Below are positions 21,752-34,276 of a DNA stretch of 34,325 bases, in pieces. The DNA is from an uncultured Schlesneria sp. (GTDB lineage: Bacteria > Planctomycetota > Planctomycetia > Planctomycetales > Planctomycetaceae). Every line of letters starts with the position of its first letter. The first letter of the stretch is position 1. Made by a program: the position numbers and the translations under genes. Location of the stretch: contig CAIWEX010000552.1 of assembly GCA_903911795.1 (NCBI GenBank), positions 1-34,325 on the forward strand. Direction: 5' to 3'. The notes below the pieces were generated by a model. The model had not been told where the DNA came from. It worked only from the letters and a program-made list of their open reading frames with translations, and ran no database searches.

Positions 21752-21906
21752 CTGTCCCACTGTGCCCCCCAATGCGAGTAACGATATCTTGAGCAGAGGA
21801 AACACCAGTAGCCGAACTCGTGAGAGTTCGGAGTTGGTTCAAAACTCCTGAATTCTCACGAATTCAGCTACGAATACCGTTACCCGCATTGTGTCCCACT
21901 CTGCCT
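21752..21906. repeat. Palindromic element R2, full copy (MITE-like)
   Basis: A nested palindrome of about 155 bp. The outer arms are AATGCGAGTAACGATA (21771-21786) and TACCGTTACCCGCATT (21875-21890), extended by CCCACTGTG and GTCCCACTC. The inner arms are GTAGCCGAACTCGTGAGAG (from 21808) and CTCACGAATTCAGCTAC (ending 21872). It has no coding capacity. A truncated copy lies at 2747-2838. Confidence 0.75.
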
Positions 21907-21931
21907 CAGTCACCCTCGACATACGTCGTGG

Positions 21932-22498
21932 TCACGCAACATGCATCGGTTCCACCAATGGGGGATGCTCCGTCCCCGTCTCTGGGACAGAGTGGACTTT
22001 CCCAACGGTTCCTGTCGAAGTTCGGAAGTACCGATTGGCGAGTTCGACTTCTTCCTGTGTCCCATGGACAATCAACAGAAATTTTCCGACTTTCATTTCG
22101 GCTTCGTACTGAACAATACTGTCATCAGGCACGCCAATACTGGACAAAGCGCCGCCAAGGACACTCAGGCCACCCACGACCACAGCACCTTCGAGTGCCG
22201 CGACAAACATTGCGACCAACGGTCCTGCCATCAGAACTGGTCCGAATCCGGGAATCGCGAACAGAGCTGAGCCAAAAAGAATCCCCCAGGCCGCTCCCCA
22301 GAAAGCACCGTTCTGACCCCATTTCTGCATCCGTTCACCGGTGTTGTAATATCCGACGACGTGTTCTTCGGTTTGATAGTCCTTTCCAACGATGGAAAGC
22401 TTCTTCATGTCGAAGCCGCTTTTCTGAAGATCGCGAATCGCGGCTTCGGCTTTATCGTGAGTATGAAAGACGGCAACGATGGTGTGCGTGTTGTGCAT
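21932..22498 (-). CDS. YflT-like general stress membrane protein
   Basis: A 188-residue protein of the heat-induced stress protein YflT type. The N-terminal domain begins THTIVAVFHTHDKAEAAIRDL, a ferredoxin-like strand-helix pattern, with MKKLSIVGKDY closing it. Residues 65-125 are hydrophobic and Gly-rich (GAFWGAAWGILFGSALF, GPLVAMFVAALEGAVVVGG), giving two to three membrane segments. The C-terminal part (AEMKVGKFLLIVHGTQEE) repeats the strand-helix unit. Function unknown; relatives are induced by stress in Bacillus. Confidence 0.82.
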   Translation of the reverse strand: MHNTHTIVAVFHTHDKAEAAIRDLQKSGFDMKKLSIVGKDYQTEEHVVGYYNTGERMQKWGQNGAFWGAAWGILFGSALFAIPGFGPVLMAGPLVAMFVAALEGAVVVGGLSVLGGALSSIGVPDDSIVQYEAEMKVGKFLLIVHGTQEEVELANRYFRTSTGTVGKVHSVPETGTEHPPLVEPMHVA

Positions 22499-22530
22499 TC
22501 AGTTTCCAGGAGAGTTGTGACAAGTTTGAA

Positions 22531-22689
22531 CTAACATCCGCGGGGGATGTGCCCGAGCAGAATGAGAATCAGAACGATGACCAGGACCAGTCCTCCGCTG
22601 GGACCGTAACCCCAGTCACGTGAGTGATTCCAACGCGGCAAGCCGCCAGCAATCAGAACGATCAGCAGGATCAGCAGAATCAATCCCAT
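22531..22689 (-). CDS. DUF3309 small hydrophobic protein
   Basis: A 52-residue protein with a hydrophobic start (MGLILLILLIVLIAGGLPRW), the DUF3309 signature SRDWGYGPSGG at about residues 23-33, then a second membrane helix (LVLVIVLILILLGHIP). DUF3309 proteins of about 50 residues are widespread in proteobacterial and planctomycete stress clusters, with no known role. The gene lies 32 bp upstream of the YflT-like gene on the same strand, so the two are probably cotranscribed. Confidence 0.85.
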   Translation of the reverse strand: MGLILLILLIVLIAGGLPRWNHSRDWGYGPSGGLVLVIVLILILLGHIPRGC

Positions 22690-22826
22690 GGTGCTTCATC
22701 TCCGAGTATAAAAGGTGTTGTTACCCCGCGCATAAGCTCGCCGCGGAGATCAGTCAGCCGATTCGATTCCGCCAATTCGCGTGGCACATTTTTCAATATG
22801 CCATGCATCCTTAGCGTGCATCCGAT

Positions 22827-23402
22827 TCAGTTTCCCTGGGAAAACGAAGCATCTTTTTCGATCGCTTCGACGTGTGAAACAGGTCCCATCTCAGTTTTTT
22901 CTGTCGTGACGCGGATCTTCATTCCTGCCTTCAGATGATCCCCTTTGCAGACGGTTCCATCGCAGGTCATGATCACATCGGCCGTTAACAGGTGTGAGTG
23001 TTCTTTACCCTTGCCATTCGTCATCACCAGCTTCTTGTCGGTAATGCTGACGAACGTTCCATCGTGGGTATTGGCGAACAGAGTATGCTTGTCGAGTGCT
23101 TCGACTTGTGTGGCAGTTTTCATATCACCCCTCTTTGTGGTGACGCGAATCTTCATTCCGGCCTTCAGGTCAGCCGCCTTGCAGGCCACTCCGTCACACG
23201 TCACGGTGGCATCAGCCGCTAATGTGTGTGAGTGTTCCTTGCCTCCCTTGTTCATCATGACCATCTGGTCACCTGACGCACTGACAAACTTGCCGTCATG
23301 ACTGACATCACGGGCTTCTTTGGCATCCTTGGCGCCCCAGGCGGAGCCACTCACCAACATCGTTATGGCAACGGCCATGACACAGAACATTTGTTTGGAC
23401 AT
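22827..23402 (-). CDS. Exported protein with two HSH/CDGxxC domains
   Basis: A 191-residue protein. A signal peptide (1-23, ending SGSAWG) is followed by two tandem copies of a domain of about 75 residues (35-110 and 113-188). Each copy has HDG, FVS, a VMxx strand, GKEHSH or KEHSH, a Cys pair (CDGVAC, CDGTVC), DLKAGMKIRVTT or HLKAGMKIRVTT, and VEA-(L/I)-(D/E)K. The His pair and Cys pair suggest a metal site, and the strand pattern suggests a small beta-barrel. Both are inference. I know no family name. Single copies occur in the genes at 23526 and 26433. The start is ATG at 23402; the longer frame upstream lacks a signal peptide. Confidence 0.78.
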   Translation of the reverse strand: MSKQMFCVMAVAITMLVSGSAWGAKDAKEARDVSHDGKFVSASGDQMVMMNKGGKEHSHTLAADATVTCDGVACKAADLKAGMKIRVTTKRGDMKTATQVEALDKHTLFANTHDGTFVSITDKKLVMTNGKGKEHSHLLTADVIMTCDGTVCKGDHLKAGMKIRVTTEKTEMGPVSHVEAIEKDASFSQGN

Positions 23403-23525
23403 AGAAAGACTTTCTCGGTCAAGGTTTTGGGAAATGTGATGAGCAAAGAGCGAAAAACGAGGCATGCTGGTTCCGGGCCAGCACACCCAATTTTTATTCA
23501 ATCAGCCCGCAAGCCATCGCAGCAA

Positions 23526-23978
23526 TCACGCTGTCTTGGCGAACTCAGCGTTCTTGTCGAGCGATTCGATCTTGGTCGCGGTATGCTTGTCATCTGGGCT
23601 GGAAGTCACGCGGATTCGGCTGCCGACCTTCAGATCGGCAGTGTGGCAGGATGTGCCATCGCAGCAGACCTTGGCATCGGCCGCGACGGTATGAGAGTGC
23701 TCTTTGCCATCTGGGTTCGACATGACGAGCTTGTCGCCTTTGATGCTGACAACTTTGCCGTCGTGCGTCTTGCAATGCGTTTCAGGCTTGCTCGTGGCGT
23801 CTGACTTTGGAGTCGTGGCGCAAGCATCAGCCTTCGGGGTCGTGGCACAGACGTCTGGCTTTGCGGCAACAGGAGCCGCTGCTGCGGCCGCAGTTGGCTT
23901 GGTGGCAGCGACAGCGGGCTTTGCATCCTTCTTGTCGTCCATTTTGGAACTGGGATTCGTCGTTGGGTTGGTATTCAT
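23526..23978 (-). CDS. Protein with one HSH/CDGxxC domain and Ala/Cys-rich lead
   Basis: A 150-residue protein. Residues 1-70 are low-complexity, Ala/Lys/Pro/Thr-rich, with a tandem motif DVCATTPKA-DACATTPKS. Residues 72-147 hold the same domain as the neighbouring gene: THDGKVVSIKGDKLVM, GKEHSH, CCDGTSC, ADLKVGSRIRVT and ATKIESLDK. No signal peptide was found, so unlike its neighbour it may be cytoplasmic, or its lead may be an unusual export signal. AAGG lies 9 nt before the ATG at 23978. It is transcribed in the same direction as the two-domain gene, 123 bp upstream of that gene's start. Confidence 0.75.
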   Translation of the reverse strand: MNTNPTTNPSSKMDDKKDAKPAVAATKPTAAAAAAPVAAKPDVCATTPKADACATTPKSDATSKPETHCKTHDGKVVSIKGDKLVMSNPDGKEHSHTVAADAKVCCDGTSCHTADLKVGSRIRVTSSPDDKHTATKIESLDKNAEFAKTA

Positions 23979-24443
23979 GAAACAGGCCTTTCCAGGCGAA
24001 AGAGCTCGGACCGTCAGACAGACGCAACATGCGTTCATCATCCACTGACCCGAAAAGGCCGGTGAAATATCTGGTCCGGGCAGGCGTGCTGCTGAATCAT
24101 GAAGATGATTCAGACTCCATTCGTTCGGCACGCGGTCGAAACCCTAAAGCGAGCGATCCGCAATTCAAAAGCTGTTGTCACAGGTGTCGGTCGTGGTTTC
24201 GCAAGAACGGGCGAGTTGAACCACTGTCTCCCGAAGGAGCGAACTGGTAACGGCTTGGTCGGTTAAGCGAAGGCTCACATGATTCCTGCATTTCTGCAGG
24301 AAATTACTCTTTCAAATGGCCCACCGAGCTTGTCTCGGTGTTGGATTGGCCCATGACGATGATGGTTCCAGGTAAGGCAAGGCGTCGTTCAAAGGCCGAT
24401 TATCCACCGAGGCAAGCTCGGTAGGGATGTTAAAGAAAGTGTC
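23979..24443. other. 465-bp intergenic region with an inverted repeat
   Basis: Separates the branching-enzyme stop from the HSH-domain gene start, so the latter's promoter should lie at its left side. The only recognised structure is the inverted repeat at 24320-24425. No gene is credible. Confidence 0.5.
24320..24425. repeat. Inverted repeat R3 (CACCGAG-type), copy A
   Basis: CCCACCGAGCTTGTCTCGGTG (24320-24340) is mirrored by CCACCGAGGCAAGCTCGGTAGG (24404-24425). Each arm also folds on itself (CACCGAG/CTCGGTG). A looser copy lies at 26787-26880. Confidence 0.65.
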
Positions 24444-26294
24444 TTATGCGGAGACGGGCTTGTCCTGAGAGTAAACGAGAACGCTGTACGACCCGATGCT
24501 GAATATTCCTGATGCCGGAAATCCGTCGGCCGTTGTCGCGACGGGAGCGGCAGGATCCTGACCTTGCTCAGTAGCGCTGACAACATCAGCACTGGGGTGG
24601 TTTCCGAACGCGTGGCTGTAGCCGCTCCAATCGCTATTCAGTCGCAATCGCCATGTTCCAGATGCAGGTAGTCCCAGCCTGTAGTTGACTCGCGCAGTCC
24701 GTGAGAGGTTCACGACGACCACAACATCGTCTGCAGGCCACCCTTGATGCCAGCGATGAAACGCGATGACGTTCTCAGCCTGATTCTGGTGAAACACGTT
24801 CAGTCCAGATCCACAGAGCCCACGTGAACATGCTGTTCGGTTCAGCCGAAGATGCACCAGATCTCGATACATCCGCAGCAGGCCTACGAATTCTTCGGAC
24901 TTATGCCAATCCAGCGGAACCGAGTCCTGGAACCAGCCGTCTTCGAGAAATTCCTGCCCCTGGAACAGCATCGGAATTCCTGGGGACGTCAGGACCAGTG
25001 CGGCGGCCAGCGTGGATCGCTTCTGAGCAAACCAGTTGTCTGAGTCTTGTGAATCGATCTCTGAAGGGATCCGAGCTTTACCATTCGCCACTTCATCGTG
25101 CGATTCACTGTAGATCACTCGTTGATAGGGATCGCCGTTATAGTTTGCTCCAAGGGCGCCCCGAACACTTTCGAGAGACCGATTCTCGTCATTCGGAGTG
25201 ATTACCGCTTCGCGAATCGGATGGACAAACTGAGCATCCCATTGAGCGCTGAATCCGGCTCCACCGGCGTCTGCAGCTTGAGTGATTCGTTCTTCGTTAT
25301 GCAGGTCCTCGGCGATCGTGATGCGACCAGGAAATCGCTCAGCGATGTCGCGATTGATCCATTGCGTAAGACTCCAGGCTTCGGGGAGATCACCGCTGGG
25401 ATCACCGTCGGCCCGTACGGTGCGCATATAGACCGTCATGTCGAGCCGCAGTCCGTCGACGTGGTATTCTTCCATCCACATCAGGGCATTGTCACGAATG
25501 AACTGCCGAACTTCTTTACGACCGTAGTCAGGTCGCGTCGAACCCCAGGGGGTCTCGGCACGCCAGTCATTGTAGAAATAGATACCTCCCAGGCCGTTCT
25601 CGCTCCAACCGTCAAATTGCCAAAGCGAGAGATCACTCGGACCAAAATGGTTGTAGACGACGTCCAGAATCACAGCGATTCCAACGCGATGTGCGGCCTG
25701 GACGAAGCGTTTGAAACCCGCAGGCCCCCCGTAGGAATTTTCGACGGCAAACAGACATGCGGGGTTGTAGCCCCACGAAAGATCTCCGGCGAATTCCGCC
25801 AGCGGCATAATCTCGATGACGTTGACGCCCAGTCGTTGCAGGTGATCCAGCTTCTTGATTGCTTCTGCAAACTTGTCCGGCACGTCTTCTGGCGCCGATT
25901 GAAATGTCCCGACGTGTAGTTCGTAGATGACCAGTTCGTTGATGGGTTGCAACTGGAAATCGTCGTTGTCCCATTCGAAATGCGGGTCATGTACAACCCC
26001 GTTCCCGATGGAGTTCGTGACTTGTCGCGCGTACGGATCGATGCGTGAGAGTTGTTGTTCGCCGTTGACGATGTGATATCGGTACTCGGCTCCAATCGCG
26101 GCATGTTCCAGATCTGCGTACCAGTAGCCGTCCCCCTCCATCACCATCGGGTCGTGATCGGTTGACCAGTCATTGAACGTCCCGGTCACAAAGACCGATT
26201 CAGCATGCGGAGCCCAGACGCGAAAGGCGACGCCTGCGTCATGGGGCATTGCTCCCATTCCCACATACGATTTGGCGGCGGCAATCATCGGCAT
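24444..26294 (-). CDS. glgB: GH13 alpha-glucan branching-type enzyme
   Basis: A 616-residue alpha-amylase superfamily enzyme with an N-terminal CBM48/E-set domain (about 20-120: VAFRVWAPHAESVFVTGTFN), a GH13 barrel and an all-beta C-terminal domain. Catalytic signatures are DVVYNHFG (211-218), VDGLRLD with nucleophile D285, TIAEDL with acid/base E329, and ESHDEVANGK with D400, the last close to the HDEVVHGK of branching enzymes. VIYELHVGTF is also found in trehalohydrolases (TreZ), so a TreZ-like role is not excluded. The start is ATG at 26294 because AGGGGA lies 6 nt upstream; a GTG at 26384 adds 30 residues without a ribosome-binding site. Glycogen modification would fit a stress or stationary-phase island. 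Confidence 0.85.
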   Translation of the reverse strand: MPMIAAAKSYVGMGAMPHDAGVAFRVWAPHAESVFVTGTFNDWSTDHDPMVMEGDGYWYADLEHAAIGAEYRYHIVNGEQQLSRIDPYARQVTNSIGNGVVHDPHFEWDNDDFQLQPINELVIYELHVGTFQSAPEDVPDKFAEAIKKLDHLQRLGVNVIEIMPLAEFAGDLSWGYNPACLFAVENSYGGPAGFKRFVQAAHRVGIAVILDVVYNHFGPSDLSLWQFDGWSENGLGGIYFYNDWRAETPWGSTRPDYGRKEVRQFIRDNALMWMEEYHVDGLRLDMTVYMRTVRADGDPSGDLPEAWSLTQWINRDIAERFPGRITIAEDLHNEERITQAADAGGAGFSAQWDAQFVHPIREAVITPNDENRSLESVRGALGANYNGDPYQRVIYSESHDEVANGKARIPSEIDSQDSDNWFAQKRSTLAAALVLTSPGIPMLFQGQEFLEDGWFQDSVPLDWHKSEEFVGLLRMYRDLVHLRLNRTACSRGLCGSGLNVFHQNQAENVIAFHRWHQGWPADDVVVVVNLSRTARVNYRLGLPASGTWRLRLNSDWSGYSHAFGNHPSADVVSATEQGQDPAAPVATTADGFPASGIFSIGSYSVLVYSQDKPVSA

Positions 26295-26432
26295 CGGCAG
26301 TCCCCTGGCTTCATTTTGAAATGCGATGGCGGTTCGTGTGGTGACACCATCAATACCTGACGTGCGTGCGACCGACTCTGTCACTGAACACTCGCGACGA
26401 CGGATCTCTTACTACGATGATGGCGAACGGCA

Positions 26433-26726
26433 TCAATGGACGTCTGCAAAATCGACCTGATTCACGAGTGCCTCAAGCTTGGTCACAACCGTCTTGTCGT
26501 CGGTCTTGGGAGAGACTCGGATCTTGCTCCCGACCTGAAGTTCCCCGATCTGACAGATCGTTCCGTCGCGACAGACATACGCGTCGTGTGCCACTCGGAA
26601 GGAATATCTATTTCCGATTGGGCACTGCATCACGAAGTTGTCATCAGAAACGCTGATCAACACACCATCATGGAAATCGCCACGTGGTTCCACGTTCGAA
26701 GGTGTTTCAACAAGGTTTACCACCAT
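26433..26726 (-). CDS. Diverged single HSH/CDGxxC-type domain protein
   Basis: A 97-residue protein whose residues 19-94 follow the same plan as the domains at 22827 and 23526: HDG, ISVSDDNFVM, a Cys pair (CRDGTIC), ELQVGSKIRV, VTKLEALVN and FA. The HSH is replaced by YSF and the Cys pair is one residue further apart, so a metal site, if any, would differ. There is no signal peptide. The ATG at 26726 has only a weak upstream GGGT. It lies 138 bp upstream of the branching-enzyme start on the same strand. Assignment is by eye and is less certain than for the other two genes. Confidence 0.6.
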   Translation of the reverse strand: MVVNLVETPSNVEPRGDFHDGVLISVSDDNFVMQCPIGNRYSFRVAHDAYVCRDGTICQIGELQVGSKIRVSPKTDDKTVVTKLEALVNQVDFADVH

Positions 26727-27050
26727 TTTGTACCCAAGCTTTCAATACTCGATCTCAGTTCGTCGCCGAGATCAATCCATTCGGAATTCACCGAGCCTGC
26801 TTCGGTGAACTATTCATTACCATTGTCATTCGCATCTCGTAAAAGCGACGGAATGCACAGGCCCCCTGCCACCGAGGCAAGGTTCTGTCACGGCCAGGAA
26901 TTCCGGTTGATTCGATCAACTGGTGGGCGATAGCGAGCTGTTAAAGCCGGATGCTAGCGATTTCAGTACATGATCGATTCCGGAAAACCAAGTCGTGACG
27001 TGCGCAACCTCGGTGGGGTGTGAAACGTGTTGAGTCGTACCTGGCTGATG
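26727..27050. other. Intergenic region with a degenerate R3 repeat
   Basis: No gene seen. It contains the palindrome TTCACCGA-GCCTGC-TTCGGTGAA (26787-26809) and, about 60 bp further, CCACCGAGGCAAG (from 26869), which together look like a decayed copy of the repeat at 24320-24425. Confidence 0.5.
26787..26880. repeat. Inverted repeat R3, degenerate copy B
   Basis: CACCGAGCCTGCTTCGGTG near 26789-26807 corresponds to the left arm of copy A, and CCACCGAGGCAA at 26869-26880 to its right arm, with similar spacing (92 versus 105 bp end to end). Confidence 0.45.
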
Positions 27051-27254
27051 TCAGGGCTTCAACGTCGTCATGAATTCGTCCAGTTCCTTTTCGGCCTGCT
27101 CTTTTGCATAGCCGTAACGCTGTTGAAGAATGCCCGACAATTGTTCTCGCTTACCCGCGACAACGGTCAGGTCATTCTCCGTCAGCTTCCCCCACTTTTC
27201 CTTGACTTTGCCGGTCATTTCTTTCCAGTTGCCCTGAATCTGATCCCAGTTCAT
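27051..27254 (-). CDS. CsbD family stress protein
   Basis: A 67-residue charged helical protein. MNWDQIQGNWKEMTGKVKEKWG and LTVVAGKREQLSG are the CsbD signature, and the C-terminus (YAKEQAEKELDEFM) is helical. CsbD-like proteins are induced by sigma-B or RpoS in many bacteria, and their molecular role is unknown. A strong ribosome-binding site (AAGGAG, 8 nt spacing) precedes the ATG, which predicts efficient translation. Confidence 0.93.
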   Translation of the reverse strand: MNWDQIQGNWKEMTGKVKEKWGKLTENDLTVVAGKREQLSGILQQRYGYAKEQAEKELDEFMTTLKP

Positions 27255-27367
27255 CGCGATGACTCCTTACGTTAGTTATGGCTCAATTCGAACGACACAA
27301 GTGAAGCCGGGGTGTTACCGATGTCCACGTCTCTCGACGTGGTTCGGTCCCCTGCAACCCAATACAG

Positions 27368-28399: not shown

Positions 28400-28903
28400 T
28401 TATTGAGGCCTCGATAGAGCCTCTTCGAGTTGTGTGACGTTTGGAACCTCCACACCAAGTGCGGTCGCCAGCGCGATCTGGTGATCCTGTTCCTGGACCA
28501 GGATTCCGCGAATCTGTTCGGCAACAGCGAATTCTCCCAATGCTTCACACTGGCGGACGCGTTGGCGATAGCGGGCAATAGTCTGATTCTCGTTGTCCAG
28601 ATCGAAGCGCAGCATGTCTTCGGCCCGCGCAGATGTCTGCACCGGCTTGGCGACGGCCAGAGGCATTCCACCCAGGTAGTCGATCTGGCCTGCGATGATG
28701 ATCGCATGAGCGAGTTCTTCGGCCGCATGCACTTCCAATTCGGCGGCGATGTTCATGTATTGCGCCCCCTTGATGACCTGCGAATAGATCACGTACGAGA
28801 TGATTGCCTGATATTCACCGGCAAGATCTTCGTTGAGCAATGCAATCAGGTCTTCGCGAGTGACACCCTGAGCTTCGTGCTTCACGTGTGTTGTGGTCTC
28901 CAT
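28400..28903 (-). CDS. Bacterioferritin-like diiron protein
   Basis: A 167-residue four-helix ferritin-like protein. Candidate ferroxidase ligands are E30, E63-x2-H66, E105 and E138-x2-H141. The spacing between pairs (33, 3 and again 33, 3) equals that of E. coli bacterioferritin (E18, E51, H54, E94, E127, H130). The heme-binding Met that follows E51 there is Leu64 here, so heme is not expected at that site. Probable role: iron oxidation/storage or peroxide defence. The ATG at 28903 has GGGA upstream; a TTG at 28918 is less likely. The upstream region holds TACGTCGTACGT (28931-28942), a possible operator. Confidence 0.85.
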   Translation of the reverse strand: METTTHVKHEAQGVTREDLIALLNEDLAGEYQAIISYVIYSQVIKGAQYMNIAAELEVHAAEELAHAIIIAGQIDYLGGMPLAVAKPVQTSARAEDMLRFDLDNENQTIARYRQRVRQCEALGEFAVAEQIRGILVQEQDHQIALATALGVEVPNVTQLEEALSRPQ

Positions 28904-28999
28904 CGTTTGTATTCCCAATCATGTTTGGTACGTCGTACGTTGTTTCATCTCAGTCTGTGCGTTCGGTGAATGGTCGTGTTACGACGGCCGATCATCGTG

Positions 29000-29266: not shown

Positions 29267-31213
29267 TCACTTACTGAAATTGAGGCCTGGGTCTTCTTTG
29301 GGTGAACCCAGCAGCTTGAAGTTGAATTTCTGGGGGCCATCAGGAACGAGTCCTGCGATCAGTGAACCGCCATCCTTTCGCTCCAAGGCCAACACGTTGC
29401 CCTCCAGTTTGTAGGTGCCACCAAACTCTTGAACCGCTTCTTTTTGTGTGAATTTCCAGTTGAAAGTGGCATCGTTCTTGAGAGTCATCTCGAACTTGGA
29501 ACCATCATCGCGTGATGCCTGCCAGATTCCGTCGAGTATCGCCGGATCAATTGGCGCGACTGGCGAGGCAGTCGTTGCAGGAGGAGCATCTGCTGGAGGT
29601 TGTGGAGTGGGCGTCTGGCCTGGCGTCGTGGGTTGAGCGGCAGGAGGCTTCGCGATCATTTTGAGGACATCTGCCGCAACGCGATCATTAGGTACCAGCG
29701 CGACAACCTGCTGCAACTGTCGTTCGGCCGCATCGGGATATCCATCGGCCATGTAGTGATACGCGAGCAGAAACTTCGATGCACCGTCTTGTGGATTTGC
29801 TTTTGTGAAGGCTTCAAGTGATCGAAGCTGAACTGTATAGATCGGAACTTCGGTGTACAGACTGCTGAGCGTGGTCCAATTCCATCCTGGCCCGACGGCG
29901 AGTACTGAATGGATCGTCGCTGCCGCCTGCTGATAGTCGCTCTTGGCAAACAGGACCAGCGCACGAAATTCGTGCATGACAGAATCGTCCGGGCAGATGA
30001 CAAGTCCCTTGTTGACGATGTCCAGTGCCGCGTCGAAATCATTCAGTTTGAAGGCCGCGACCGCATCGTCCAGACTCTGTCCACAGGTCATCGGTGCGTT
30101 GGCATTTGCTGCGGGAGCCACCGTGGAATATACCACGGGAATCGGCTGAGAATAGTTGTAATTGCCGTACGAAATGTAACTGGAGTTGTAGTACGGATTG
30201 TAGTAACCGAGGTATCCGCTGTTGTACCCCAGTGACCCCAGTCCCCAGGCACCCAATCCCCATCCCATCGGGCGATATCCGTATCCGCCGTAACCACCTC
30301 CCCATCCATAACCACCGTAACCTAATCCCATTCCGAGACTTGAACCCAGGCCGAATCCCAAGCCTGTCCCGAATCCGCTGCCAAATCCATTACCACCGTA
30401 ACCGCCGTATCCACCTCGATACCCGCCACCATACCCGCCATTACCGCCGTAATTGCCGTTCCAATATCCGTGATATTGCGAATGCCGATTGAATGCGGGC
30501 TGATAGTTGTTGTTACCGAGATTTACCGTGTGATTGTTCAACTGGATCGTGTTACCGCCCATCGACTGGCCTGCCACTCGTCCCCGGTTGCCACCCGTCA
30601 ATTGTGCCCCGGTTCCATTCGGCCGTCCGAAATTTCCGTTCGTACCATTTACAAAGTTGGAACGCGGTTGCCCGAGCCCGCCCGAAGGTCCATTGGGGCG
30701 GATGTTTCCACCCGGTTGAATTCCATTGACGCGTCCTCCACCTGCTTGTGGAAAACGTGCTGCACCTGCTGGTGCACCAGGCGACGTGCGAATGCCGTGC
30801 TGTCCACCTGCATTGGGCTGACTGAACGAAGGTGTGCGATTAATCGGTGCTCGTCCGGCACCACCGAGTTGTGGTCCAGAGCGAATTCCTCCCCCAGGCT
30901 GGCCACCACTGAAGTGCGGTGCACCTCCACCGCCACTCGGACCACTCGGTCGTCCGCCGCCAACAGGTCCGCCGCCGACAGGCCCGCCGCCGCCGGGATG
31001 TCCACCACCTCCGCCTGAAGGTCGCCCGCCGCCACCACCGCCACCGGGATGACCGCCACCGCCCCCACCGCCTGCGTGGCCACCACCTCCACCTCCGCCC
31101 GCGTGGCCGCCACCACCGCCTCCCCCACCACCCCCGCGGGCGTAGAGATCAAATGACGTGAGCGAGAAGGCCAGTCCACAGACGATCAGCGTTTTCCAAC
31201 TTTGAGACTTCAT
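29267..31213 (-). CDS. Exported Gly-rich protein with TPR-like and C-terminal beta domain
   Basis: A 648-residue secreted protein. The signal peptide is 1-25 (ends LYA). Residues 26-100 are almost pure Gly with regularly spaced His/Pro, followed by a Gly/Asn/Pro-rich stretch and a Gly/Tyr-rich stretch (about 250-370) that resembles structural or adhesive proteins. Residues about 390-545 look like TPR repeats (LDDAVAAFKLNDFDAALDIV, KSDYQQAAATIHSVLAV, GYPDAAERQLQQVVALVPND). A Pro/Thr linker leads to a beta domain of about 85 residues (IWQASRDDGSKFEMTL, GGTYKLEGNVLALER). A surface-exposed assembly or binding role is inference. Confidence 0.8.
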   Translation of the reverse strand: MKSQSWKTLIVCGLAFSLTSFDLYARGGGGGGGGGGHAGGGGGGGHAGGGGGGGHPGGGGGGGRPSGGGGGHPGGGGPVGGGPVGGGRPSGPSGGGGAPHFSGGQPGGGIRSGPQLGGAGRAPINRTPSFSQPNAGGQHGIRTSPGAPAGAARFPQAGGGRVNGIQPGGNIRPNGPSGGLGQPRSNFVNGTNGNFGRPNGTGAQLTGGNRGRVAGQSMGGNTIQLNNHTVNLGNNNYQPAFNRHSQYHGYWNGNYGGNGGYGGGYRGGYGGYGGNGFGSGFGTGLGFGLGSSLGMGLGYGGYGWGGGYGGYGYRPMGWGLGAWGLGSLGYNSGYLGYYNPYYNSSYISYGNYNYSQPIPVVYSTVAPAANANAPMTCGQSLDDAVAAFKLNDFDAALDIVNKGLVICPDDSVMHEFRALVLFAKSDYQQAAATIHSVLAVGPGWNWTTLSSLYTEVPIYTVQLRSLEAFTKANPQDGASKFLLAYHYMADGYPDAAERQLQQVVALVPNDRVAADVLKMIAKPPAAQPTTPGQTPTPQPPADAPPATTASPVAPIDPAILDGIWQASRDDGSKFEMTLKNDATFNWKFTQKEAVQEFGGTYKLEGNVLALERKDGGSLIAGLVPDGPQKFNFKLLGSPKEDPGLNFSK

Positions 31214-31275: not shown

Positions 31276-32379
31276 TTACTTTTCGGGTGATACGGCAATT
31301 TCCGGCGTAGGTGCTCGGCGGACGATGGTCACCAGATCGCTATCAGGCAACTGCACGCCCGCGATTTCGTGATCCACCAATTGCCAGGTCATCGTGTGGT
31401 CGTTGACACGGGTATAGATGCTGGTCCCTGATGCGGTCTGACCATCTGCTGTCACGCCGCTGGTTTTCAGCACCCAGCGATCTTCGTCGCGGTGCCAAGA
31501 TCCATCGCTATAGCCACCTTCCGAGTCGAAGATCCAAGTTCGCAATTTGCCAGTCAATGGATCCCAGCCAATCCTCTGCGTGCCGCTCATGGCCTCTTCT
31601 CCAGCGACCTGGATGACGAACTGGCGCAACAGAAAATTGCCGTTATCAACAGACTCGCACGAGAAGATCACAACGGAATCTTCGTCTTCATCAACCCAGT
31701 CGCCCTGTAGCCAGCCGAGTTGCTGCAGTTGAGTCCGATGCTGTCGACGCCCCTTGGGGGCGTGATCACGGACGCTCGCTGAAAGCCACTTGCCATCAAT
31801 CTTGACGTGGACAGCGGTGTATCGACAGTAGACTGGATCGTCGTCGTCATCATCATCGTCGCCGTCGGATGACGTGACTATTGTTGTTCCATCTTCAACT
31901 GCAACGCCCGAGCTGATGAAACGGATCGATTCGATCTCCATTTCAATCTTTGCACCAGGGTTTTCAGTGAAGCATGCGGTCAGAGCTTCCTGGATCGCGT
32001 CGCGTCCCTGATGGACATTGCCTTGTGCATCAACGAATTCAGCGTCGGGTGTAAACTGAGCGACGATCGCCTTGGCGTCCGCCGCGTTGAACGCCTTGAC
32101 GAACGCTTCGCCGGTCAGGCGAATCGCTGATTCATCGGCTGCATGTGCGTCTGATTTCGTTACTTCTGTAACGGGCTTCTTGACATCGAGCTTTGGCTTT
32201 GATGTCGGCGTGTCGGATCGTGGCGCAGCCGGCGATTCAGCCCCTTTCGGTGTGTCCTTGGTCGCAGTTGGAACTGCGACCTTGTTCACGGTCTTGGGGG
32301 GTGCTTGTTCCTCGGCAGCTCTCAAAGCGACCACGGCGAGGACCATGAAGGATGTTGTCAGAATCGCGATGCGTTGCAT
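31276..32379 (-). CDS. Exported SgcJ/NTF2-like domain protein with poly-Asp run
   Basis: A 367-residue protein: signal peptide (1-22), a Lys/Pro/Thr-rich linker, then an NTF2/SnoaL-type domain at about 85-205 (IRLTGEAFVKAFNAADAKAI, FVDAQGNVHQGRDAI, HVKIDGKWLSASVRDH) of the SgcJ/EcaC kind. A run of eight Asp (174-181), coded by GAC/GAT repeats, interrupts it in a loop and could bind cations. The second domain (215-355: LGWLQGDWVDEDEDSVV, LRTWIFDSEGGYSDGSW, MTWQLVDHE) is beta-rich and unassigned. The start is ATG at 32379 with GAGA upstream; the longer frame lacks a signal peptide. Confidence 0.8.
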   Translation of the reverse strand: MQRIAILTTSFMVLAVVALRAAEEQAPPKTVNKVAVPTATKDTPKGAESPAAPRSDTPTSKPKLDVKKPVTEVTKSDAHAADESAIRLTGEAFVKAFNAADAKAIVAQFTPDAEFVDAQGNVHQGRDAIQEALTACFTENPGAKIEMEIESIRFISSGVAVEDGTTIVTSSDGDDDDDDDDPVYCRYTAVHVKIDGKWLSASVRDHAPKGRRQHRTQLQQLGWLQGDWVDEDEDSVVIFSCESVDNGNFLLRQFVIQVAGEEAMSGTQRIGWDPLTGKLRTWIFDSEGGYSDGSWHRDEDRWVLKTSGVTADGQTASGTSIYTRVNDHTMTWQLVDHEIAGVQLPDSDLVTIVRRAPTPEIAVSPEK

Positions 32380-32441
32380 ATTGACATCTCTTTCGCCGGC
32401 AGCCCACGAGCGACTGTTACTGGAATCCATGAACAGTCAAA

Positions 32442-33895: not shown

Positions 33896-34276
33896 ATGAA
33901 GACCCAAGGTGAGATGGAAGCAGCGATCTGCCAGGGAATGGCGAGATTCGAACAGGAATACATGGGCCGCGGGCCAAAGGATATTCAGGCTCATCTGCTT
34001 GGTGATATGCTGGTCGTGCGGTTGCATGGAGTTCTGACGGCCGCAGAACAGCAATTGGTGAAAACGCACCTTCCGGAAAAAGGCCGAGACCTGCTGAAAG
34101 AGGTGCGAACTCAATTGGTCGAAATCGCCAGGCCTGTTCTGGAGACGATGGTACGCGATGCAACAGGCGTCGGAGTTGTCAGTTTGCATCACGACATCAG
34201 CACCTCCACGGGCGAGGAAATCGTCATGTTTACGCTCGCTGAGCTGCCAGAACTCCGCGAAAAACGAGGGCGATAG
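33896..34276 (+). CDS. DUF2294 domain protein
   Basis: A 126-residue protein of the DUF2294 family: KTQGEMEAAICQGMARFEQE, YMGRGPKDIQAHLLGDMLVVRL, GVLTAAEQQLVKT, LVEIARPVLETMV and VGVVSLHHDISTSTGEEIVMF cover the whole family profile. Such proteins are small and cytoplasmic, without known function, and often occur near stress or envelope genes. It is divergent from the rest of the island. The ATG at 33896 is preceded by GCGAGG, a good ribosome-binding site. Confidence 0.9.
   Translation: MKTQGEMEAAICQGMARFEQEYMGRGPKDIQAHLLGDMLVVRLHGVLTAAEQQLVKTHLPEKGRDLLKEVRTQLVEIARPVLETMVRDATGVGVVSLHHDISTSTGEEIVMFTLAELPELREKRGR

Follow-up and report, generated by a model that had tools for sequence, protein, structure and literature searches.

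Periplasmic chaperones of the CusF/SilF family (PF11604) bind Cu(I) and Ag(I) through a His residue, a Met-x-Met pair and a Trp residue. The ligands in CusF are His36, Met47, and Met49, with Trp44 as a cap (PMC9302797), and those in SilF lie at one end of the barrel (PMC10656224). Here, we describe a domain of ∼75 residues that is present four times in three nearby genes of contig CAIWEX010000552.1 (C552), and whose family, marked by an unusual conserved His pair, is a new, unnamed planctomycete branch of a known superfamily. The contig, all 34,325 nucleotides of which were analyzed and are referred to as the window, is part of the 8.39-Mb genome of an uncultured Schlesneria sp. (GCA_903911795.1; class Planctomycetia, hereafter the class). 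We tentatively favor a function of the domain as a buffer or chaperone for a soft metal, probably Cu(I), that would act like CusF with H-x-H replacing M-x-M.

The open reading frames are as described in the initial annotation, which had placed the domain in exported and possibly cytoplasmic proteins. By a hydropathy rule for leaders and export, one protein is exported and two are apparently non-exported:

22827..23402, minus strand: exported domain protein of 191 residues, with a hydrophobic signal-peptide-like leader and two tandem domain copies
23070-23303, minus strand: exported copy 1, a domain copy in the 22827-23402 protein
22836-23069, minus strand: exported copy 2, a domain copy in the 22827-23402 protein
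23526..23978, minus strand: 23526 protein of 150 residues without a leader, with an Ala-, Lys- and Cys-containing lead and one domain copy at 23535-23768
26433..26726, minus strand: 26433 protein of 97 residues without a leader, with one diverged domain copy at 26442-26675

With the 23526 protein as query against its own genome, the other copies were recovered at E = 8.1e-26 (56% identity), 9.6e-17 (46%), and 9.8e-17 (44%). As judged by this search, the similarity of the window copies is far above chance, and the four segments are shown to be homologous copies of one domain, in agreement with the initial annotation. Two further copies in this genome are in a gene on contig C350 that ends in a BON domain.

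The residues invariant in the four-row alignment of the window copies are H2, D3, G4, S8, V15, M16, G21, S25, D31, D37, G38, C41, L46, G49, I52, R53, V54, E68, and F76; these and all residue numbers below (His24, Met16, Cys18, etc.) are positions in the domain alignment. The motif residues that were initially considered to be shared were all found, apart from a shift of the first Cys in the diverged 26433 copy. Accordingly, the proposed Cys pair reads CDGxxC in three copies and C-R-D-G-x-x-C, with the first Cys one position earlier, in the diverged copy. The alignment agrees with the proposed HSH in the three closest copies and its loss from the 26433 copy, which has YSF in its place and in which Met16 and Cys18 are both present. 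Exported copy 1 has M14-V-M16 on strand 2.

The idea that the domain is unnamed holds for the family itself. None of the three window proteins passed a Pfam or NCBIfam cut-off or had a PHROGs match at E 0.01. The strongest subthreshold matches were to DUF4330 (21.7 bits; cut-off 27.6) and ExtJ (23.0 bits; cut-off 52.5). Membership of ExtJ (NF040942) was rejected, with 23.0 bits as the best score, a partial alignment, and a model that matches 11 of 14 control genomes at E 1. DUF5666 (PF18914; cut-off 27 bits) did not appear among the matches of the three proteins at E up to 5 and had no match at E 0.001 in their own genome; the 23526 copy alone scored 12.4 bits (E 0.21). The CusF/SilF model (PF11604; cut-off 27 bits) gave 14.5 bits for the exported protein, was not listed for the other two proteins, and had no match at E 0.001 in the genome. 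The matches in the PDB by sequence profile at E up to 10, i.e., three de novo TIM barrels and one methyltransferase, were taken as chance. A tblastn search of the plasmid collection with the 22827 protein gave no match at E 0.01, and the window contains no RNA family at gathering score and no tRNA gene as an island anchor. In the titles and abstract starts of the papers listed for DUF5666, ExtJ, CusF, copper chaperones, YflT/CsbD/BON, planctomycete CsbD, and planctomycete oligonucleotide/oligosaccharide-binding (OB) folds, we found no description of the domain, which leaves its absence from print unproven.

The link to a known superfamily is made through a distant relative. The iterated domain profile collected 168 copies in 132 open reading frames of the collected loci, a few of which are counted twice. 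One of the proteins collected in this way, the sigma-factor fusion L025, scores above the cut-off as DUF5666 (32.5 bits, residues 629-688), and the domain profile match begins at residue 628, i.e., on the segment scoring as DUF5666; residues 627-690 also have a subthreshold CusF_Ec match (17.3 bits). L091, which was the sole locus above the cut-off in the DUF5666 search, was not collected by the iterated profile. By transitive evidence only, the family appears to belong to the DUF5666-type superfamily.

Of 397 genomes of the class, 127 (in 64 of 185 genera) were matched by a 35-row profile at E 1e-4, and 59 had a strong match (E 1e-12); among genomes drawn over the phylum, 27 of 392 had a match at E 1e-3. 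Thus, the profile search of planctomycete genomes and Pfam suggested in the initial annotation finds a domain that is widespread in the class, with the window proteins below every Pfam cut-off. Distant matches merge into general DUF5666-like segments, with fusions to a sigma factor, a PDZ protein, and COX3 as examples, and up to five copies occur in tandem (L041). In L024:964-1926 (plus strand), a superfamily domain is inserted, as judged by eye, between the third and fourth hydrophobic helices of a cytochrome c oxidase subunit III (PF00510), in a loop that is presumably periplasmic from the topology of the protein. Two sigma-70-type proteins, L025:841-3069 (minus strand; by Pfam) and L026:118-2286 (plus strand; by likeness), have three tandem C-terminal superfamily domains. 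L191:2208-4664 (minus strand) is a long open frame, 818 residues as scanned, with a domain copy and an FHA domain.

Several patterns of conservation bear on the function of the domain. They were counted in 127 strong copies, of which two rows with unknown residues were dropped to give 125, and the duplicate L092 was dropped to give 124. His24 and His26 occur together in 73 of 124 copies, His24 alone in 14, His26 alone in 10, and neither in 27 (odds ratio 14). Of the 78 copies that have His24 plus His or Tyr at position 26, 71 carry Met16 or Cys18 vs. 25 of the 46 others. Both residues together were found in a single copy of the 124, which is the window 26433 copy without H-x-H. None of the 78 exported copies has Cys18, which 27 of the 47 non-exported copies carry, and Met16 is present in 56 of 78 exported and 14 of 47 non-exported copies. 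In these counts, the export class follows the hydropathy rule with two changes made by hand (L167 to non-exported, and the two-copy protein of L078 to exported), and the non-exported class is impure, as it takes in the sigma-factor fusions L025, L026, and L092, the PDZ protein L022, the long proteins L188-L190, the lipoprotein-like protein L040, and the contig-truncated L144. Only 38 of 125 copies (25 of 78 exported and 13 of 47 others) have both Cys36 and Cys41, and a conserved disulfide between them was, therefore, rejected. In the alignment, the H-x-H is retained more often than the Cys pair, which is not the conserved feature.

AlphaFold2 models of two copies, the 23526 copy and the diverged 26433 copy, were built from 15-row alignments. 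Both have identical strands and form a five-strand OB barrel, with a predicted local distance difference test (pLDDT) score of 88 and 94, respectively. An OB fold of the domain is, thus, confidently predicted; this matches the small beta-barrel envisaged initially, and the two copies modeled have the same predicted fold and not unrelated folds. In Foldseek searches against the PDB, the best matches of the 23526 model were the OB domains of IF-1 and proteasomal ATPases; PAN, a cold-shock domain, and the S-layer self-assembly domain 9fs9 (template modeling [TM] score 0.63/0.61) were also matched, and a chain of the HypC-HypD complex was found at rank 50. For the 26433 model, Cu(I)-CusF (2vb2) was at rank 16 (TM 0.56/0.58) and Ag(I)-CusF (2qcp) at rank 34 (TM 0.60/0.58, 77 columns).

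Metal binding by the domain remains plausible, with the H-x-H co-conserved with a third Met or Cys and copper-storage-type genes near some copies. We propose that each barrel would bind one soft metal ion, with Cu(I) as the first candidate and Ag(I) or Zn(II) next. The ligands would lie at one barrel end, i.e., His24-x-His26 on strand 3 together with a third ligand at the end of strand 2, which would be Met16 in most exported copies and Cys18 in many non-exported copies. From strand alternation in the 23526 model, we infer that residues 14/16/18 and 24/26/28 are on the face of the core residues Leu14 and Val/Leu28, on the inner side near the barrel end. Such a site would be analogous to that of CusF/SilF. 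The role of the exported tandem protein would be to buffer metal, or pass it on, in the periplasm, and that of the non-exported protein to do so in the cytosol, and this metal handling would serve envelope and oxidative stress protection. In the 26433 copy, the site would be lost or changed. The four window copies have no M-x-M at 24-26 and do not contain the His, Trp, and Met-x-Met ligand set of CusF/SilF. By hand, the planctomycete CusF pattern T-I-x-H...M-T-M can be aligned over T-T-T-C...H-C-H; this is a proposal and, beyond the LKxGxxV strand, is without profile support. Homology to CusF by sequence was rejected as unproven: hhalign of 108 or 20 domain rows vs. five CusF-like rows gave a local P of 0.0042 or 0.016 over 19 or 18 columns, respectively.

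The domain is carried by a general-stress gene island, as shown by co-location. The genes of this kind in the window are:

21932..22498, minus strand: YflT-type stress protein (PF11181, 43.4 bits), of the family that is the commonest named neighbor
22531..22689, minus strand: DUF3309 small protein (PF11752, 66.8 bits), between the exported domain gene and the YflT gene
27051..27254, minus strand: CsbD-like stress protein (PF05532, 75.4 bits)
28400..28918, minus strand: ferritin-like protein (PF00210, 71.8 bits), with a blastp cluster in 10 of 81 domain loci, window included
33896..34276, plus strand: MpsC-family protein (PF10057, 124.1 bits), near the window end

Neighbors were counted in 29 selected genomes with copies, at domain places drawn from the matches listed (down to about E 1e-7) and merged within 15 kb. 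Within 10 kb of the 46 merged places, YflT was found 19 times (expected 0.22), CsbD nine times (0.12), and a copper-storage-type protein six times (0.19), where the expected numbers assume even gene placement and places within one genus are not independent. These counts stem from 15, 7, and 5 genomes, respectively, and the unmerged count for YflT is 20 of 49 places. The copper-storage-type count is biased because three genomes (G520, G594, and G606) joined the selection only once copper genes had been noticed close to their copies; leaving out these three gives 4 of 42 merged places. The name copper-storage-type is based on PDB matches to CSP3 (5fig) and RkCSP3 (6zif).

The largest blastp cluster around the 81 domain loci (24 loci) received no name from a search and resembles, by eye, two-component proteins. 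The others include YflT-type (22 loci), CsbD-containing (16), MpsC-type (13), BON (11), ferritin-like, and DUF3309-like (9) clusters. Cluster names come from Pfam on single members and from one of the searches of the 29 genomes, and the comparison with expectation covers YflT, CsbD, and the copper-storage-type protein. Two more window genes have clusters that include the window: 29267-31213 encodes a Gly-rich protein with TPR repeats (11 of 81 loci) and 31276-32430 a DUF4440 protein (9 of 81). The loci of exported copies from two clades contain a multicopper oxidase (found as a blastp cluster in L085, L161, L192, and L198), copper-storage-type proteins (L192, L198, and L203), or Met-rich proteins (L161 and L203); the cytosolic-clade copies L165 and L166 are also near copper-storage-type genes. 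L165:8370-9074 (plus strand) encodes a protein of 234 residues without a Pfam match at E 0.001, the cluster of which occurs in 11 of 81 loci; each of these 11 also has a cytosolic copy of the Cys18 type.

Several lines of evidence weigh against a metal site. First, the full H-x-H is missing from 51 of 124 copies, 13 non-exported copies, including the window 23526 copy, carry Met16 instead of Cys18, and the Cys18 pattern may represent one or two events; the residue counts were taken across related copies without correction for shared descent. Second, when profiles were compared with five CusF-like sequences from planctomycetes, the LKxGxxV strand alone was aligned, without significance, and the CusF tryptophan is without counterpart, as there is no Trp in the four window copies. 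Third, CusF is absent among the 50 Foldseek matches listed for the 23526 model, and the IF-1 and proteasomal ATPase OB domains outrank it for the 26433 model. No match at E 0.001 or better was obtained for either model and, therefore, the support is good for the fold class but not for any single relative. Fourth, general stress genes dominate among the neighbors, of the three neighbor associations, that with copper storage is the weakest and owes part of its count to the choice of genomes, and the only copper-storage-type gene found in the Schlesneria genome is on another contig (C684).

An alternative that is possible, if less than probable, is an OB domain linked to stress whose ligand is an oligosaccharide, a peptide, or nucleic acid, or which serves in adhesion or as a structural module; H-x-H and Cys would then be surface or stability features, and no metal would be bound. 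In the Foldseek search, the best matches are OB domains with nucleic-acid-binding or structural roles (IF-1, PAN, and the cold-shock domain, plus S-layer 9fs9), the array of five tandem copies and the BON, PDZ, sigma-factor, and COX3 fusions look like those of a general module, and the copies without a full H-x-H are in line with it. However, with exported copies in the family, nucleic acid is unlikely to be the ligand common to all, the Met or Cys is co-conserved with the His pair, and some copies are beside copper-storage-type genes. We consider it improbable that the copies are plain DUF5666-type domains without a special site, whose His motif is drift in a planctomycete lineage; the above-cut-off score of L025 on the segment matched by the iterated profile speaks for this idea, but DUF5666 has no listed match to the window proteins at E up to 5 and reaches only E 0.21 with the 23526 copy alone, and the H-x-H is retained in several families of the class. 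Finally, a redox or scavenging module, in which Met, His, and Cys of the barrel would scavenge oxidants or give a disulfide that forms reversibly during oxidative stress, would suit the stress-island context with ferritin-like and Dps-type proteins and the Cys and Met residues in many copies, but is quite improbable given that the rarity of joint Cys36 and Cys41 leaves no conserved disulfide between them and that no catalytic motif was recognized by eye.

The history of the copies was followed in a tree of 108 copies and 70 columns, from which near-identical rows (90%) were removed and in which 48 of 105 inner branches were left open for want of support. The 23526 and 26433 copies are sisters (99/92), with the 26433 copy on a long branch (1.03); the 26433 copy is, therefore, a lineage-specific local offshoot. 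By contrast, the closest grouping of exported copy 2 is with second copies, namely those of the C350 gene and of two other species in the genus (98/86). The tandem duplication, therefore, predates the separation of the species, and the C350 gene probably arose by gene duplication. Thus, the spread by local duplication proposed in the initial annotation applies only to the 23526/26433 pair, and the exported tandem copies are old paralogues. A non-exported domain gene is beside an exported one in ten loci, i.e., the window, one locus in each of four further species of the genus (L074, L075, L077, and L078, the last counted after the change of its export class by hand), and L146, L150, L154, L155, and L159 from the same family as the window. 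In the window, a terminator-like hairpin at 23488-23460 lies between the exported and 23526 genes, so that separate transcripts are possible; eight such sites occur in 21900-27300 vs. 4.5 expected. A short hairpin, ACCGAG-N5-CTCGGT, is found between the domain genes at 24323-24339, 24406-24422, and 26790-26806; with up to two mismatches, it has five matches in the window vs. 1.49 expected, and five were reached in 2 of 100 shuffles. An alpha-amylase-family gene with CBM48 (24444-26384), which we take to be of the glycogen-branching type, stands between the 26433 copy and the other two domain genes.

Should the domain bind no metal, its family would still be a well-defined module without a name, open to annotation in many genomes. 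A broader scenario, which we regard as unlikely in its entirety, is that the domain represents a second class of metal-binding OB fold beside CusF/SilF: an H-x-H barrel, widespread in the class, with a compartment-dependent third ligand (Met in exported copies and Cys in a clade of cytosolic copies), forming a paired cytosolic and tandem exported metal buffer in general-stress islands. If so, a His-pair class with strong matches in 59 of 397 genomes would join CusF/SilF among the metal-binding OB folds, planctomycete stress islands would gain a testable biochemical function, and the domain would offer a natural example of the compartment deciding between Met and Cys as ligand.

Among known systems, the OB domains of IF-1 and proteasomal ATPases share the fold class and have the best Foldseek ranks, but identity is 7-22% in the rows shown and TM is about 0.5; we know of no functional context in common with them. 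ExtJ, a selenite/tellurite operon protein, resembles the domain in repeated weak matches (E 8e-5 to 0.11). DUF5666 has a domain layout that is alike by eye and is matched above its cut-off by a distant relative on the same residues; it differs in that the H-x-H marks the planctomycete branch in the alignment and in that the window proteins are unmatched. With CusF/SilF, the domain shares by prediction a five-strand OB barrel (TM 0.56-0.60 for one of two models) and, as proposed from the hand alignment, a ligand at the end of strand 2 and an X-x-X pair where strand 3 begins. It differs from these chaperones in having no significant sequence match to them and no Trp, in having H-x-H for M-x-M and Met16 or Cys18 for His, and in its non-exported and tandem forms and its stress-island context.

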